Part shown: in pieces, positions 1,061-7,764 of the stretch
Numbering within the stretch: the first letter of the stretch is position 1
Layout: each line of letters begins with the position of its first letter
Position numbers and translations under genes: made by a program
The notes under the pieces: model-generated
Seen by the model: the letters and a program-made list of their open reading frames with translations, nothing else
Database searches by the model: none
Told to the model about the DNA's origin: nothing
Source of the DNA: Bryobacteraceae bacterium
Lineage (GTDB): Bacteria; Acidobacteriota; Terriglobia; Bryobacterales; Bryobacteraceae
Reading direction: 5' to 3'
Assembly (NCBI GenBank): GCA_025350445.1
Contig: JANXXV010000645.1
Location: 1 to 7,764 of the forward strand
DNA: 7,764 bases

Positions 1061-2920
1061 TCAGTTTAGCCGCTTGGCTGTAAGGTAATACCGGCAAAGC
1101 GCGAGCATCCAGACGGCGGCCGTCCAAAGCGATAGTGTGCGCAAAACCATCCAGACGGGATCGGGGCGAAGAATATATTCGAGTGCTCCGGCTTCCGGTT
1201 TTCTATCGATCATGATGAGCATGTCCCGATTCGCCGTTATTTCTTCGAACGGGATCTCGCGGCCATTCCACAGGATGTGGTTCCAGGGAAAGATTTGTAT
1301 GTTTGTCCGAAGCCGCCCGGTACGCAAAGCGTTCGGCCCGGTACGCAAAGCGTTCGGCCCGGTACGCAAAGCGTTCGGCCCGGTACGCAAAGCGTTCGGC
1401 CCGGTACGCGAAGCGTTCGGCCCAGTTTCCTCCGCGGGAATCACGACCGGCAGCACGTCTCCAAAATATTGTTGTGCTCCGATAGGAAACGATACCGGCG
1501 AGGGAACCGCGCTATCGGCCAGGATGCTGCGGCTGCCGCCTTTCACGGCGTACCCGCTCACTCCGTAAAAGGTGGAAGGCAGGGACCGCAGCGCATCGCG
1601 ATTGGTGGTTGTCCATCCGGACCCGGCCAGCATATTGGGCTCTTCGACGTGATGAGCGTGGACGAGTTTTATGGAAACGCCGGCGGTGGAGAGCACGAGG
1701 CACACGGCAAGAACAGCCATCAGCGGGCGATCCGGCAAGGCGGCGCTTTGCCGTCGCATGCCAGCCAGCAGGAATAGAACCGCAAACAGAAGAAACAGAT
1801 CCGCGTAGGTTACCAGGCGGTAGGCAAATTGGATGAACTGCAGAGTCTTCGGCAGCAGTTTCCAGGTTAGGTGCGACACGGACAGGAAAGACACGAACGC
1901 GAAGCCGGCGAAGGCGGCCCAGGCAAGGCGGAACTCATGCGGGAACTCATGCCGGAGCGCTTTTGCGCGGCCTGGTCCGGCGATGCGGAAGAACAGGAAA
2001 ACAGCCAGAATCAGCAGCGCGAAGTTAATTTGCGCATCCAGATGGGGAGTTCCCCACCGGACAAGCTCCACGGTACCCACGCGCGGATCCCAGGGGAGCG
2101 GAGAAAACCGGGTGGTGAAACTGTCGAGACTATCCGGGAAGATGCCGATCCACCCGCCGGATAGCTGTATTGCACGCCCGTAGAGTGCGACCGCATAAAT
2201 CCACGGCTCCATCACCAGGGAGAGAAGCGCCGCGGTCCAGCCGAGCGGCTTCCAAAGATCGTGCTTATGGTGGAGAAACGGCAACGACGCTAGAATCGCA
2301 AGGCACACCATGCAGCCGCCGAGAATGGCGGTGATGGGGTGCGTCCCCATGGCGAAGGCCAGAGCGAGGGCCGCGCCGAATAGTAAACGGCGGCGTTGGA
2401 GAGGATCGTTCATCCGCACCATGCGCAGCCATATCATGCATACCGAGATCACCAGCGAAACGGCAATGAATTCGGTTATCGCCCCTCGGTTGTACAGGTT
2501 GGTGAGAGGGTAGGTAGCGAAGGAAACCAGGACGGTAACGGTGCAGGCTATGAAGGGATTGCCCGAGATAGCCTCCACCGCCTTGCTCACCTGCCGGACC
2601 TGCAGTAGAAATACCAGACTACAGACGAAGCGCAGCGCAAAAGAGCAGCCGGTGAAGGCGCTGATCAGGCCCGCGGCCGGGTAGAAGAGGAATCCGTAAA
2701 AGACCGGGTAAGGAACACCGGCGGCCTGTCCGGTATTAAGGGTGATGGGGAACGCCCAGTGACGGCGGAAGTATTCACCGAAATAACCGATTTCCCAGAG
2801 ATGGTTATTCCAATCGAAATAGAAGGCGTTGTTGCCGTGCCAGAGAAGACAGATCGGCAAGAGGCCCAGCAGATAGGTGAGTGCGGTCCATAGCCGGTGC
2901 TGGGTCACGGCCCGGGTCAC
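1061..2920 (-). CDS. Polytopic membrane protein, PTPS-related / GT-C glycosyltransferase-like
   Basis: A 619-residue protein with many hydrophobic segments: roughly 12-28, 72-106, 124-168, 178-215, 226-250, 298-315, 332-350, 368-388, 398-420 and a last helix at 591-611. The soluble part is about 421-590. Features fitting the 6-pyruvoyl-tetrahydropterin-synthase-related membrane family (PF10131, GT-C-like) are Asp36 with HLWEIG in the first external loop, GVPYPVFYGFLFYP (68-81), YNRGAITEF (143-151) and LQFIQFAYRL (360-369, in place of the usual QFPWR). Such proteins are thought to act in surface glycan assembly, but their reaction is mostly unproven. The start is GTG (2918-2920), overlapping the upstream stop as GTGA. 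There is no good ribosome binding site, so translation is probably coupled. A second in-frame GTG lies four codons in. Residues 499-533 are five 7-residue repeats of TGPNALR type. Family assignment is moderate; the membrane protein call is firm. Confidence 0.75.
   Translation of the reverse strand: MTRAVTQHRLWTALTYLLGLLPICLLWHGNNAFYFDWNNHLWEIGYFGEYFRRHWAFPITLNTGQAAGVPYPVFYGFLFYPAAGLISAFTGCSFALRFVCSLVFLLQVRQVSKAVEAISGNPFIACTVTVLVSFATYPLTNLYNRGAITEFIAVSLVISVCMIWLRMVRMNDPLQRRRLLFGAALALAFAMGTHPITAILGGCMVCLAILASLPFLHHKHDLWKPLGWTAALLSLVMEPWIYAVALYGRAIQLSGGWIGIFPDSLDSFTTRFSPLPWDPRVGTVELVRWGTPHLDAQINFALLILAVFLFFRIAGPGRAKALRHEFPHEFRLAWAAFAGFAFVSFLSVSHLTWKLLPKTLQFIQFAYRLVTYADLFLLFAVLFLLAGMRRQSAALPDRPLMAVLAVCLVLSTAGVSIKLVHAHHVEEPNMLAGSGWTTTNRDALRSLPSTFYGVSGYAVKGGSRSILADSAVPSPVSFPIGAQQYFGDVLPVVIPAEETGPNASRTGPNALRTGPNALRTGPNALRTGPNALRTGRLRTNIQIFPWNHILWNGREIPFEEITANRDMLIMIDRKPEAGALEYILRPDPVWMVLRTLSLWTAAVWMLALCRYYLTAKRLN
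1320..1424. repeat. Five-copy 21-bp in-frame tandem repeat
   Basis: Five direct copies of a 21-bp unit lie head to tail at 1320-1340, 1341-1361, 1362-1382, 1383-1403 and 1404-1424. The first four are identical; the fifth has two substitutions (A to G at 1410 and G to A at 1424). Each unit contains the inverted repeat ACGC-AAA-GCGT. On the coding (minus) strand it encodes TGPNASR once, then TGPNALR four times, residues 499-533 of the membrane protein. The unit length is a multiple of three and the unit has no stop codon in any of the six frames. It lies in the predicted soluble region before the last helix. The near-identity of the copies suggests recent expansion. Confidence 0.97.
1930..1953. 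repeat. 12-bp in-frame tandem duplication
   Basis: GGAACTCATGCG (1930-1941) is followed at once by GGAACTCATGCC (1942-1953), identical at 11 of 12 bases. On the coding strand this gives the doubled HEF in RHEFPHEFR (residues 323-331 of the membrane protein), in the charged stretch between two predicted membrane helices. Confidence 0.85.
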
Positions 2921-2925
2921 GGCTT
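2902..2925. repeat. 12-bp tandem duplication covering the operon's stop/start junction
   Basis: GGGTCACGGCCC (2902-2913) and GGGTCACGGCTT (2914-2925) match at 10 of 12 bases. Each copy carries, on the minus strand, CCGTGACCC, which holds both a TGA in the frame of the upstream gene and a GTG in the frame of the downstream gene. The actual GTGA overlap uses the copy at 2914-2925; the other copy gives Val5 of the membrane protein and a back-up stop for the upstream gene four codons on. Confidence 0.8.
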
Positions 2926-5900
2926 TGGTGGAGCGTCCACGGTGAACTGTAGCCGGTCCGATTCGCCGAAATCGTTCATCAGGTAAATGTCGACTACGCC
3001 GGGCGATTCGTAGAGCCCCGGCGGAATGAGTGCGCTAATTACCGAGGGGGTCTGATACCACGACGCAAGGATGGTGGATCCCCAGACGATTGCGGTGCCC
3101 GGCGTTGCATTCTCGCACTCCACGCCCAACGCCGATTGGCCGGTGGGCTGGATTTGAAAACCCTCCCGCGCATAACAGGTAGAAGGGTGCAGTTTGTTTA
3201 ACTTCAATCGAAATTCCGGCCTTTGCCCGCTTATCGACCCGACCCGAATGAACTCGACCGGCGAGCCGGTATCGAATCGATGAACGAAAACATCCTGGGC
3301 GGCGACCCTGTGGATACCCTCGAACCCGCCGGCTTTATCCCATGCGGCTTTGGGAATAAGGACGCAGTCCAGCGCGGTTGCGGGAGTGTTTGAAACTTGT
3401 TCAAACTTATCCTTTGCAATACCCAGTGCAAAGGCCTGCATCTCCAGAACGTTCTCATAATCGCCTTCTGAAAATGTGGTCACGGCGGCGACAGCGCCGA
3501 TGGAGGGATCGCGCCGGCAATGGCGGACCATGCGTTCCAGCCACCCCGGAGTAACGATAATCCGCGGGTTGAGGAACACCAGATACTCGCCGGTTGCTTT
3601 TTGCGCGGCCACGTTATAGCAACCGGCGGTGGCGGTATTCTCATTGATCAACTCTAGATGAATGCGATTGTTTAAGGCCGCGCGTTTCAGCAGCGTGGCG
3701 CGGGTGGCATCGCTGGAATTGTTGTCGGCCACGATGATTTCGTAGTTCGGCCAGGCTGTGTTGCGCTGAACGGAATCGAAGAAGGTTTCAAGAAATGCTT
3801 CTTCTCCGCTTTCGGTGGCAACCAGAATGGAAACCATGGGGAAAGATTTGCGAACGGCTTCGTCGATGACGTCAACGCGGGCGGCCCAGGTGTTCGCCTT
3901 TGCGTATTCAATGCGGCGGCGGCGCAACTGCGGATCGTCTTCGCGAACGGCCTCGTCCAGCTTGGCGGCGAAGTCCCCGACGTTCTTGCCGATGTAGACC
4001 AGATCGTTCAGCGAGGCCAATTCCGGCATATCGGTGGCCACCACCGGTTTGCCCTGGCTGAAATACTCATACATCTTCACCGGGTCCACACCCTTGATGA
4101 GATCGTTCAACACAAAGGGGATCAGGCAGACATCGAAGTGCGAAAGATACAGGGGAATCTCACGGTAGTTCTTTTCGCCAAGGAACGTAACGTTGGGCAG
4201 CGATTGGATCCGCGCGGTATCCAGCGCGTAGACATGGCCGATGAAGAAGAAATTGTACTGCGGGCGAAGCTCGGCAATGCGCGTCATCAGTTCCAGATCG
4301 AACCAGTCGGCAATGGCGCCGAAGTAGCCGATCACCGGCTTCGATTTATCGGGGATGAGATTATTGGCCCGGGGCGTGGACAGGAATTCGAAATCGGCGG
4401 CATTCCGGGCCAGGATTGGATCGGGCCGAAAGGCCTGCTGGCGCTCATACAACTCCTGCGCGGTGACCACCAGCACGTCGGCTTCCCGGGCCAGGTTCCT
4501 TTCCTCATCCAGATTCCACTGGCTGATGCGCGGCTCGGCGGTCCAATTCCGCCAGTCGTCCATGCAGTCGTAAATGATTCTGGAATTGAATTCCTGCCGC
4601 AGGTTGAGGCCGATGCGGCGCCAGAACGGAAACTGCAGCAGCACGCAGTTTTCGGTGATGGCAAAGTCTCTGTAAACCTCCCTGAGGGCGGCGGAGATGG
4701 GTTCGGCATCTTCGTCCGATAGAGAACCGGTATACATTTCCAGGTTCTCACCGCGGAAATGCAGTTCCCATAAATCCGGTCGCAACTGGATGGCTTCGTA
4801 GCGTTTGGGATGCGAAAGGGGAAGATGGCGGCCGGGGCTGAGCCAGAAGACGCGATGGCCGCGGCGGGCGAACTCGGCTGCGATCTGTTGCGGCCGTTGA
4901 AAGCGAAACTCGAAATCGAACACCGGAAAAACAATCACGTCGTAGGTCTGCTTTGGCAGAATCTCAGCGAGGGTGGGAACGGGTGCAGGCTCGGTTTCAG
5001 TAGCCTCTTCGGTTTCCAGCCAGGCTGAAGCCTCCGCGGTAAGAAGGGCCTCCGCTAACTGCTGTTCGGGCATATAAGCGGAAAGATTGGGAAATTGCAC
5101 ATCGTATTCGGCCAGGCTGCCGGGGCCTTGACCGGGCCAGCTCAGAACCCATTTGCAAAACGGACCCAGGCCGCGGCGGAACAGCAAAGTGTAAGCTTTG
5201 CGCAAGGCAAGCATGATTTGCCAGGCCTTTTCATTTCTATGGCTGATGAGAGTCCGCTGAAAGGCTTCCTGATAATGACGCAGCCCGCTGACAGCTTGCT
5301 GCCGTATTTGTTCGGCCTGCCATAGCTTGAAAAGATATGTTTTTTCCAGCTTCCGGTGTTCCTTGTCAAATTGAGAGATGCGGATCTTCAGCTTGGCAAT
5401 CTCGATATTTTGCGCGTTGGCAGTCTTCCCAAAAGCAGTTTCGTTTTTTGCAAGCACTACCGATAGCTCTTCCACGCGGGCGGCATTGCGCCGGCTTTCT
5501 TCCATGTAGAAGCCCACCTCTTTGAAGAGCCGCGCCGCTTCCACGCGGCCGGCATCAAAGGTTTGCAAGTGCGCCTGGATGCCGTGCCGCAGCAACAGTG
5601 AGGCTTCGGCTCCCAGAGGCTGCCGCGGTTTGGGTTCGTTTCGCAAAACATCCATCGCGATAGAGGCGTTACTTCCGGCTTGTTGCTCGAGTTCCGCTGT
5701 CTGTTCGCCGATGGTTGCGCGCAGTTCCGCGGCATTCCGCAGGGCTTCCCGCATCAGCCGGGTGAGGTGCGTATTCTCTATCGATTTAATGTCAATGCAA
5801 AGATGCGGCAGTTTCACGCGCTGCATCAGTTGATCCACTTTCGGGTCGTAGCTTAAGGCGATCACCGGTACATTGGCGAGCATGCCAAAAATGATGGCGT

Positions 5901-6768
5901 GCAGACGCATGCCCACAATCAACCCGCATTCGGCCATCCGGGCGGCAAGGCCGGCCGGGGAGAGTTCCTCCTCCACGATGTGGACGCGATTCTGGTGCTG
6001 CATCAAATCCCGCACCCGCCGCGAAACGGCGACATCGTTTTCAATTTCTCCACTCAGTTTTTGGAAGGGGAAGAATTCGATGTCGACGGGTTCGGCCTGT
6101 AAAAAGCGGTCGAGGGCGGTGGCTACTTCGGATTGCCAAAACCCTGCATCCACGTCTATGTTCCAATTGCGAAGCGAGACGCCGATTTTTCGCGCAGTGG
6201 ATTTTGGGGCGGCCGGTTTGGACCAGGGCAGGGCGAAGACGGGGTCGGCGGTGAGGTGAATCTTCGCCGCGGGAACGGCGAGGGATTCCAGCAGCAGGCG
6301 GGAGCCGCCGTCCCTTACGGTGATGATTTGCGCGGCATCGCAGATGGCTTTTGTAAACAGCTTGCCGTGCCTGGACAGCAGCGGGCCGGCGCCCACCGCG
6401 TAGAGCATCAGCGGTTTGGCATAAAGAGAAGCGAGTATGGCGGAGGTGGCGTAGAAGCTGAGGCCGGAATGATTATCGGACAGCAGCGCATTCGGATCGA
6501 CGCCCCAGTAATCCTGGAACAGGCCACCGCCGCCGATGATCACCATATCCGCGCCGCGGATGGCCTCCAGAATGCCAAGAGCGTGGGACCAGAGGATGGC
6601 TTTCACGTCATACCTGGCCGCCGTTTTCTCAGGCTCGCCGGAGGTGACTGTTACACGGAGGTCCGGCTGCAGGGCGCGGAGATGCGCCAGCATGGCGGTG
6701 AGGATCGCTTCGTCCCCGGTGTTACCAAAGCCGTAGTAGCCGGTGATGAAGATGTGGTTCCTGTTCAA
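2917..6768 (-). CDS. Fusion protein: polysaccharide pyruvyltransferase + GT-B glycosyltransferase + degenerate GT2 + IPT/TIG-like domain
   Basis: One uninterrupted 1283-residue frame with clear modules. (a) 1-375: polysaccharide pyruvyltransferase of the CsaB type (PF04230), with GYYGFGNTGDEAIL (10-23), GGGGLFQD (79-86), RLHAIIF (288-294) and ALSYDPKV (304-311). The family transfers pyruvate from phosphoenolpyruvate to a sugar. (b) About 405-500: charged, probably coiled-coil linker, then an acidic Pro/Glu stretch near 585-600. (c) 609-965: GT-B (GT4-like) glycosyltransferase, with RFQRPQQIA (622-630), YDCMDDW (733-739), KPVIGYFG (from about 808) and YEYFSQGKPVVATD (900-913). (d) About 977-1165: GT2-like domain with ADNNSSDAT (1014-1022), but NPR (1067-1069) where the metal-binding acidic motif should be, and a shortened region after GGFE (1147-1150) lacking the ED catalytic segment. 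(e) About 1184-1283: beta-rich IPT/TIG-like domain ending DFGESDRLQFTV. No signal peptide or membrane helix is seen, so it is probably cytoplasmic or peripheral. The start is TTG (6766-6768) with GGAG five bases upstream; no in-frame ATG fits better. Confidence 0.93.
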   Translation of the reverse strand: MNRNHIFITGYYGFGNTGDEAILTAMLAHLRALQPDLRVTVTSGEPEKTAARYDVKAILWSHALGILEAIRGADMVIIGGGGLFQDYWGVDPNALLSDNHSGLSFYATSAILASLYAKPLMLYAVGAGPLLSRHGKLFTKAICDAAQIITVRDGGSRLLLESLAVPAAKIHLTADPVFALPWSKPAAPKSTARKIGVSLRNWNIDVDAGFWQSEVATALDRFLQAEPVDIEFFPFQKLSGEIENDVAVSRRVRDLMQHQNRVHIVEEELSPAGLAARMAECGLIVGMRLHAIIFGMLANVPVIALSYDPKVDQLMQRVKLPHLCIDIKSIENTHLTRLMREALRNAAELRATIGEQTAELEQQAGSNASIAMDVLRNEPKPRQPLGAEASLLLRHGIQAHLQTFDAGRVEAARLFKEVGFYMEESRRNAARVEELSVVLAKNETAFGKTANAQNIEIAKLKIRISQFDKEHRKLEKTYLFKLWQAEQIRQQAVSGLRHYQEAFQRTLISHRNEKAWQIMLALRKAYTLLFRRGLGPFCKWVLSWPGQGPGSLAEYDVQFPNLSAYMPEQQLAEALLTAEASAWLETEEATETEPAPVPTLAEILPKQTYDVIVFPVFDFEFRFQRPQQIAAEFARRGHRVFWLSPGRHLPLSHPKRYEAIQLRPDLWELHFRGENLEMYTGSLSDEDAEPISAALREVYRDFAITENCVLLQFPFWRRIGLNLRQEFNSRIIYDCMDDWRNWTAEPRISQWNLDEERNLAREADVLVVTAQELYERQQAFRPDPILARNAADFEFLSTPRANNLIPDKSKPVIGYFGAIADWFDLELMTRIAELRPQYNFFFIGHVYALDTARIQSLPNVTFLGEKNYREIPLYLSHFDVCLIPFVLNDLIKGVDPVKMYEYFSQGKPVVATDMPELASLNDLVYIGKNVGDFAAKLDEAVREDDPQLRRRRIEYAKANTWAARVDVIDEAVRKSFPMVSILVATESGEEAFLETFFDSVQRNTAWPNYEIIVADNNSSDATRATLLKRAALNNRIHLELINENTATAGCYNVAAQKATGEYLVFLNPRIIVTPGWLERMVRHCRRDPSIGAVAAVTTFSEGDYENVLEMQAFALGIAKDKFEQVSNTPATALDCVLIPKAAWDKAGGFEGIHRVAAQDVFVHRFDTGSPVEFIRVGSISGQRPEFRLKLNKLHPSTCYAREGFQIQPTGQSALGVECENATPGTAIVWGSTILASWYQTPSVISALIPPGLYESPGVVDIYLMNDFGESDRLQFTVDAPPKP

Positions 6769-7199: not shown

Positions 7200-7260
7200 A
7201 TGCTTGTAGACACCGGCGTCTGCCTGCCGTAAGGCGATCAAGACGCTAGAACGGTTGGGA
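7200..7260 (+). pseudogene. vapC (PIN-domain toxin) remnant
   Basis: Three bases after the vapB stop, ATG at 7200 opens a frame reading MLVDTGVCLP and then stops at TAA (7230-7232). MLVDTGV is the classic PIN-domain start, with Asp4 as the first metal ligand. In the next frame, 7225-7260 reads CRKAIKTLERLG, which resembles the helix usually found about 15 residues further on in VapC proteins of this type. The best reading is a vapC that has lost an internal piece with a frame change and has then been cut off near 7260, where sequence opposite the 3' end of the DUF2442 gene takes over. No toxin can be made. Each piece alone is short; their order, spacing to vapB and strand make the call. Confidence 0.55.
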
Positions 7261-7501
7261 CTTCCGGCTTGGAAGTAACTGCTTGATAGAGGGCGTCGGG
7301 AGCGAGATCGGCTCCGTTCGGCCAGCACACTGCGCCATACTCATCTACGCGCACTTGCGAGAAGAGAGCCGGATCGCGGAGGGGTTCGAATACAGCCCCG
7401 AAAAGCCTGGAGGACAGATCTACCATCCCGCTTGTGCCATCGGCGAACACCACTTTTAACGTGTATCCTTCACCGGCGCTGACCCGAACGATTCGATACA
7501 T
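7238..7501 (-). CDS. DUF2442 domain protein
   Basis: An 87-residue protein with the DUF2442 pattern: LKVVFADGTSGMVDLSSRLF (15-34), then FEPLRDPALFSQVRVDE and CWPNGADLAPDALY towards the end. The family is small and soluble; it is often encoded beside DUF4160 and its biochemical role is not established. The start ATG (7499-7501) has GGAG (7509-7512) seven bases upstream, placed across the last codon of the DUF4160 gene, and only four bases separate the two genes, so they form one operon with probably coupled translation. The last ten or so residues (KPEVPTVLAS) are encoded opposite the vapC remnant at 7238-7260, so the C terminus may have been altered when the two segments were joined. It ends facing the vapB/vapC debris. 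Confidence 0.85.
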   Translation of the reverse strand: MYRIVRVSAGEGYTLKVVFADGTSGMVDLSSRLFGAVFEPLRDPALFSQVRVDEYGAVCWPNGADLAPDALYQAVTSKPEVPTVLAS

Positions 7502-7505
7502 TCCA

Positions 7506-7764
7506 TTACTCCAACGGCTGAATGGGACTGAGCGGACTATGCTCCTGCCCCTTGTTCCAATTATCGCGCAGCTCCCCCTTGTGAAGTTCGGCCCAATCGA
7601 GCACTAACCCAAGAGCTCGGCGTGGAAGCTTTCCTTCAATGACCTCCATCGTCTCGATAGCGATCTTTGCTTCGTGCTCCCCATAGATGGCGTGAAAGTG
7701 AGGGGGTGGGTGATCGTCATAGTACATCCGGATGACGATTCCAAAAAAGATGCTGAGCGTTGGC
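7506..7764 (-). CDS. DUF4160 domain protein (missing only the first bases of its start codon)
   Basis: The frame runs off the right edge: upstream of an internal Met (7725-7727) it continues as PTLSIFFGIVIR, which is the normal DUF4160 N terminus. The base at 7764 gives the G that would complete an ATG just outside the window, so the full protein should be about 86 residues. The core reads MYYDDHPPPHFHAIYGEHEA, the diagnostic HxPPHFH motif, followed by EGKLPRRALGLVLDWAELH and the ELRDNW signature. The histidine-rich motif suggests metal or nucleic acid binding, but no activity is established. It is followed four bases later by DUF2442. The pair recurs in many bacteria and is sometimes suspected of being a toxin-antitoxin-like module; that is unproven. 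The internal Met should not be taken as the start. Confidence 0.88.
   Translation of the reverse strand, partial: PTLSIFFGIVIRMYYDDHPPPHFHAIYGEHEAKIAIETMEVIEGKLPRRALGLVLDWAELHKGELRDNWNKGQEHSPLSPIQPLE

Follow-up and report, generated by a model that had tools for sequence, protein, structure and literature searches.

The window analysed here, a 7,764-nucleotide stretch of a Bryobacteraceae bacterium (Acidobacteriota; contig JANXXV010000645.1, assembly GCA_025350445.1), carries on its minus strand (2917..6768) a gene with a TTG start for a 1283-residue protein in which, from the N to the C terminus, a CsaB-type pyruvyltransferase is followed by a long helical linker, a GT-B glycosyltransferase, a family 2 glycosyltransferase (GT2) region and a small beta domain. 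An original prediction, made from the nucleotide sequence, had described this gene as a single fusion whose modules would add sugars and pyruvyl groups in sequence. Here we find that the fusion is conserved among relatives and that key residues of its pyruvyltransferase and GT-B modules are kept; the GT2 module of the window's clade has lost catalytic residues.

A conserved pyruvyltransferase-glycosyltransferase fusion

The frame contains no internal stop in the open reading frame listing, all motifs quoted in the original prediction recur in its translation, and Pfam searches agree that the three enzyme modules share one chain: PF04230 (PS_pyruv_trans) covers residues 16-309 (E = 2.3e-39), the GT-B models PF13692 and PF00534 cover residues 811-939 (3.1e-08) and 825-957 (2.4e-06), and PF00535, the GT2 model, covers residues 989-1116 (9e-19). 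AlphaFold2 models, run on two pieces of the protein, reach a mean pLDDT of 85.3 for residues 1-610 and 90.3 for residues 600-1283.

A protein search for the fusion returned 74 matches, the window's own included, and all four modules are present in 38 of them, down to about 40% identity. Full-length homologues of the same module order stand at 84, 82 and 77% identity on other contigs, P0006 is 76% identical to the window's protein, and an 85% identical copy of the gene is found in genome G001. Among 257 genomes of the same order, with two candidates scored per genome, 21 match the intact relative P0005 at E ≤ 1e-100, mostly over the GT-B and GT2 modules. Homologues encoded as separate genes, which had been named as evidence that would speak against the fusion, do exist: G003 carries a pyruvyltransferase (378 aa) and a GT-B protein (389 aa) as separate facing genes (L004, L135), and L084, L085 and L087 hold complete pyruvyltransferase genes without glycosyltransferase modules. 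Yet the pyruvyltransferase is followed by GT-B in 54 of the 74 matches, which leaves the outcome of this check mixed. Pyruvyltransferase frames at L083 and L086 are truncated by contig ends, some genomes carry GT-B with GT2 only, and in G053 (L076) a pyruvyltransferase-GT-B protein and a GT-B-GT2 protein are encoded about 650 bases apart. In L025 and L027, from Bryobacterales, homologous GT-B and GT2 modules follow a linker in the same order, but a methyltransferase occupies the position of the pyruvyltransferase, and a profile search of those two proteins did not find the C-terminal beta domain. Judged from these sequences, the family architecture is a putative capping enzyme, a linker, GT-B, usually GT2 and sometimes a beta domain.

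Two further observations concern the surroundings and paralogues of the family. Judged by eye, four loci seem to share a radical SAM protein (beginning much as LPEHLRDEVRVNWYMTQWCNYSCPYCPV) close to the pyruvyltransferase or the fusion (L070:6702-8120; L084:5544-6968; L087:3-950; L072:14585-16108), with the Pfam assignment made for the L070 copy only. On contig L001, what is left of another, paralogous gene for GT2 and the C-terminal domain occupies positions 1208-1612, some 2.5 kb upstream from the main copy; its HHFGNGSF segment is of the intact type.

Kept and eroded modules

The CsaB-type module (residues 1-371; 5656..6768, minus strand) scores 218.6 bits against the NCBIfam model TIGR03609, just above the cut-off of 213.1, and 136.4 bits against PF04230 (cut-off 25.3), and it retains Y12, F14, R152, R200, R288, H290 and K310. 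In P. alvei CsaB, the available text of PMC10435577 assigns Y14, F16, R148, R207, H308 and K328 to phosphoenolpyruvate and acceptor interactions; these residues correspond here to Y12, F14, R152, R200, H290 and K310, a correspondence drawn from motif and order rather than from alignment to CsaB itself. The CsaB-type active-site residues thus appear intact by sequence and the predicted pyruvyltransferase is borne out. The module shares with P. alvei CsaB both its family and residues shown to be important there, and differs from it in being part of a fusion, the P. alvei enzyme being described as the product of its own 1209-bp gene and assayed on a ManNAc-GlcNAc-diphosphoryl lipid acceptor (PMC10435577, in the parts available).

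The following linker forms a single modelled helix of 124 residues (387-510; 5239..5610, minus strand), with ten-residue block means of pLDDT between 64 and 92 and a length of about 186 Å at 1.5 Å per residue; across the family the linker measures 53-420 aa (median 244.5, n = 58). In P0029 the linker, residues about 372-690, has seemingly lengthened through internal repeats (EAETESERE, EAAWNDERAALLLRADRL and similar ones), as judged by eye. At the end of the linker lies a cationic hydrophobic helix (residues 513-532; 5173..5232, minus strand) with a charge of +4 and a moment of about 0.33, values past a threshold that 18 of the 649 windows of the protein reach; its W516, M519 and Y526 are kept in at least 90% of alignment rows, and it could possibly touch the membrane. 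The GT-B module proper (residues 605-965; 3874..4956, minus strand) is assigned as a GT4-like glycosyltransferase from Pfam, AlphaFold2 and conserved residues: the GT-B fold is present, K898, E901 and E916 are invariant, and an NCBIfam match to TuaH is partial (729-963) and far under its cut-off. By sequence, both the pyruvyltransferase and the GT-B residues are intact in the window's clade, which comprises the window's own protein (P0001) and its three nearest relatives (P0002, P0003 and P0004).

The third module (residues about 970-1185; 3214..3861, minus strand) is a GT2 (GT-A) remnant. It still matches PF00535 at 68.5 bits against a cut-off of 23.3 and is GT2 by descent, and the ADNNSSDAT motif is present in an otherwise eroded module. 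In an alignment of 55 rows, from which P0052 and P0058 were set aside for broken ends (both keep the LNPD aspartate and lack an intact FEDDD), the metal-site aspartate of LNPD is replaced by arginine in all four clade members and in none of the 49 other full relatives; in the window the codon is CGG (Arg 1069, 3562..3564, minus strand). We take this aspartate to be a metal ligand of GT2 enzymes. The second histidine of FIHHF is likewise arginine in 4/4, and the relatives' FEDDD motif, at whose site the window has an in-frame deletion junction (3313..3321, minus strand), is lost in P0001, P0002 and P0004; in P0003 it reads FEDSND after the deletion and is altered rather than plainly gone. The VDN, GF, NN, LNPD, FEDDD and second-histidine columns are unchanged in the 49 other rows.

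The erosion extends to the length of the module. Between the end of GT-B and the C-terminal domain the four clade members have 224 (the window's own protein), 223, 196 and 191 residues, against 292-303 in each of the 34 intact rows listed, made up of L077 and 33 proteins below P0040, so that the clade members are short by 73-106 residues in the GT2 module. About 45 residues after FIHHFGNGSF are absent in all four; P0003 also lacks the VDN segment, and P0004 retains only VDGD ahead of its deletion. P0005 scores 108.6 bits against PF00535, whereas the clade members reach 68.5 (P0001), 60.9 (P0002), 28.6 (P0004) and 25.1 (P0003). By sequence, the GT2 module of the window's clade thus seems catalytically dead: the GT2-like domain of the original prediction holds as a statement of descent and not as a working module, and, with the metal-site aspartate gone in 4/4 clade members, the idea that one assembly adds sugars and pyruvyl groups in sequence through every module is not supported.

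Could the eroded region have been repurposed, for instance for acceptor binding or for oligomerization together with the C-terminal beta domain? The remnant is well modelled (20 of its 22 blocks of ten residues have pLDDT 77-96), all four members keep a similar core segment, ATGEYLVFLNPR..V.PGWLER..RHCRRD, and the C-terminal domain is more alike within the clade than expected (z of +2.2 to +3.3 in 6/6 pairs). The GT2 module itself, however, is less alike than GT-B predicts in every one of the same pairs (z of -2.3 to -4.4), and its deletions vary among members, fitting loss of constraint. These z scores, from a line fitted to 561 intact pairs, are descriptive, as pairs share rows and are not independent. 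On balance we regard repurposing as rather unlikely.

The same deletions bear on whether an assembly error or frameshift might have joined separate genes or created a false GT2 deletion. Although the modules do exist apart elsewhere, the three full-length homologues at 84, 82 and 77% identity show the same order on contigs of their own, which strongly favours a real fusion, and all four clade members carry in-frame shortenings of differing sizes. Since such differing shortenings occur in four separate database proteins, they point to biology, and we consider an artefact extremely improbable.

The chain ends in a small beta domain (residues 1188-1283; 2920..3207, minus strand) with an Ig/TIG-like appearance. 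The TIG-like assignment of the original prediction stands as far as the strands of the AlphaFold2 model go; the TIG profile PF01833, though it covers positions 4-83 of 84, reaches only 12.4 bits (E = 0.17) against a cut-off of 20.9, and CoaZ_rpt_PGGG is also sub-threshold (E = 9.2e-4).

A proposed role in glycan elongation and capping, and a possible link to the S-layer

We propose, with a probability of about one half, that the fusion, as one polypeptide, both elongates and caps a glycan on the cytoplasmic side of the membrane. Its GT-B module would add a sugar to a lipid-linked surface glycan, and the N-terminal CsaB-type module would cap the non-reducing end of the presumed acceptor with a pyruvate ketal from phosphoenolpyruvate, held at a distance from GT-B by the long helical linker. 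Most relatives have two sugar-transfer modules, GT-B and GT2, which would suit a polymerase of disaccharide repeats joined to its own terminator. In the window's clade GT2 would have decayed to a structural remnant, and the protein may make a simpler or shorter glycan, add one sugar before capping or use a separate glycosyltransferase.

We infer this division of labour, in which the C-terminal half elongates and the N-terminal half caps, by analogy with O-polysaccharide enzymes, because the module order is the same and a pyruvyltransferase or methyltransferase sits in the cap position. In the available text of PMC11231755, a coiled-coil ruler keeps the terminator of these enzymes apart from their sugar-transfer modules; the arrangement is a single chain in WbbB (of K. 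pneumoniae O12) and partly so in ORF6-O7, whose cap is a methyltransferase-kinase. Both resemble the fusion in having an N-terminal cap, a long helical region and C-terminal glycosyltransferase modules, and ORF6-O7 further shares an Ig-like domain and, with L025 and L027, a methyltransferase-type cap. As far as that text describes them, they differ from the window's protein, in which the cap is a CsaB-type pyruvyltransferase, the first glycosyltransferase is a GT4-like GT-B, one glycosyltransferase lacks catalytic residues, the Ig-like domain is C-terminal and the coiled coil is unproved. A chemical parallel is WbbZ of K. pneumoniae O1, a pyruvyltransferase that, in the portions available of PMC10629545, places a pyruvate ketal at the chain end and halts polymer growth in vitro; it is, unlike the fusion, a separate protein of another pyruvyltransferase clade.

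Several observations weigh against our proposal. WbbZ exerts no control over chain length in cells, according to the text available of PMC11231755. The heptad periodicity of the window's linker shows no excess, with 237 of 2000 shuffles reaching its value, and across the family 6 of 51 members reach p ≤ 0.05 (median p 0.27); the ruler role is thus unproved, and the coiled-coil label of the original prediction, though a long helix is modelled, is likewise not proved. The membrane-helix test is non-specific, as the number of passing windows indicates. We noticed no gene for Wzm or Wzt next to the fusion, either in the window or when scanning open reading frame lists of other loci by eye; the only ABC ATPase gene found near a pyruvyltransferase (L087) showed no Wzt_C domain; and Wzt_C is encoded in 14 of 14 chosen genomes regardless of architecture, which makes its presence weak evidence. 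With GT2 dead, moreover, the two-sugar polymerase reading fails for the window's own protein.

The fusion might instead be a classical CsaB that pyruvylates an envelope glycan for SLH docking, its joining to glycosyltransferases a mere convenience without chain-length control, and this account we regard as possible but doubtful. Besides the TIGR03609 score, it draws on a co-occurrence across the 257 genomes of the order: SLH domains (E 1e-5) are found in 10 of the 11 that score above 150 bits for CsaB and in 20 of the 246 others (Fisher p 1e-9). That value is overstated because the SLH-rich genomes form about two clades, a 23-genome rpoB tree showing 2 changes. The 150-bit cut was picked after the scores were seen. 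Among 14 chosen genomes, 7 encode SLH domains at E 1e-3, G001 with its fusion copy among the SLH carriers. In G049 the pyruvyltransferase gene adjoins two SLH genes, a nucleotidyl transferase and a GHMP kinase, and in G003 the pyruvyltransferase and an SLH match share a contig, about 2.1 kb apart; in G002 and G001 a GT-B gene, or a GT-B fragment at a contig end, and not the fusion, has an SLH gene immediately downstream. Against the classical account, the other CsaB-strong genomes show no SLH match within 10 kb of the pyruvyltransferase, among the matches listed, G053 and G236 have the pyruvyltransferase without SLH, and G187, G051, G188 and G189, rich in SLH, have no PF04230 match at E 1e-5. 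The last four are either incomplete bins, a possibility raised by the nearness of G051 and G189 to the pyruvyltransferase-bearing G131 on the rpoB tree, or users of another SLH anchor. The S-layer link of the original prediction thus stands as a co-occurrence with exceptions and without phylogenetic independence, and it is plausible that CsaB works with SLH proteins in this lineage.

Combining the single-chain elongation-and-capping proposal with this link, the acidobacterial CsaB-type pyruvyltransferase would serve a single-chain glycan polymerase as its spaced terminator, the pyruvate-capped product would dock SLH proteins, and one polymerase module would have turned pseudo-enzyme in the window's clade, altering the glycan with the cap and C-terminal domain kept; taken whole, this scenario is speculative and unlikely. 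The fusion would extend the terminator-polymerase fusions of Klebsiella and E. coli O antigens to a pyruvate cap and to the Acidobacteriota. The graded decay of one catalytic module within a conserved fusion offers a natural experiment on which modules are needed, and an annotation as 'CsaB with two glycosyltransferases' overstates the capability of the protein in the window's clade.

Other genes in the window

Downstream of the fusion, a gene on the same strand (1061..2920) encodes a 619-aa protein with no named domains in profile searches, which by eye we judge to be a membrane protein. Its GTG start overlaps the fusion stop as GTGA, which makes co-translation of the two probable. The protein has 55 matches including itself; the longest contig listed for one of them, P0087, and that listed for the fusion relative P0011 both measure 88,773 bases, which hints that the two may lie together. 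Within the gene, a 21-bp unit is repeated 5.2 times with 98% matches (1315-1423), in frame, to give TGPNALR repeats.

At the left end of the window, a plus-strand gene terminates (positions 1-135) in a PEP-CTERM sorting motif (PF07589, E = 4.5e-07); being opposite in strand to the fusion and over 2.7 kb away from where the fusion gene ends, it shows no functional link to the fusion in the window. A serine recombinase/resolvase gene follows at 287-847 (PF00239, E = 6.6e-47). The right end (7238-7764) carries a DhiA/DhiT-like DUF2442/DUF4160 pair, under the curated cut-offs, with a counterpart at L001:1-420; contig L001 starts at the same base, with nearly identical DNA, as if both assemblies had broken in the same repeated element.

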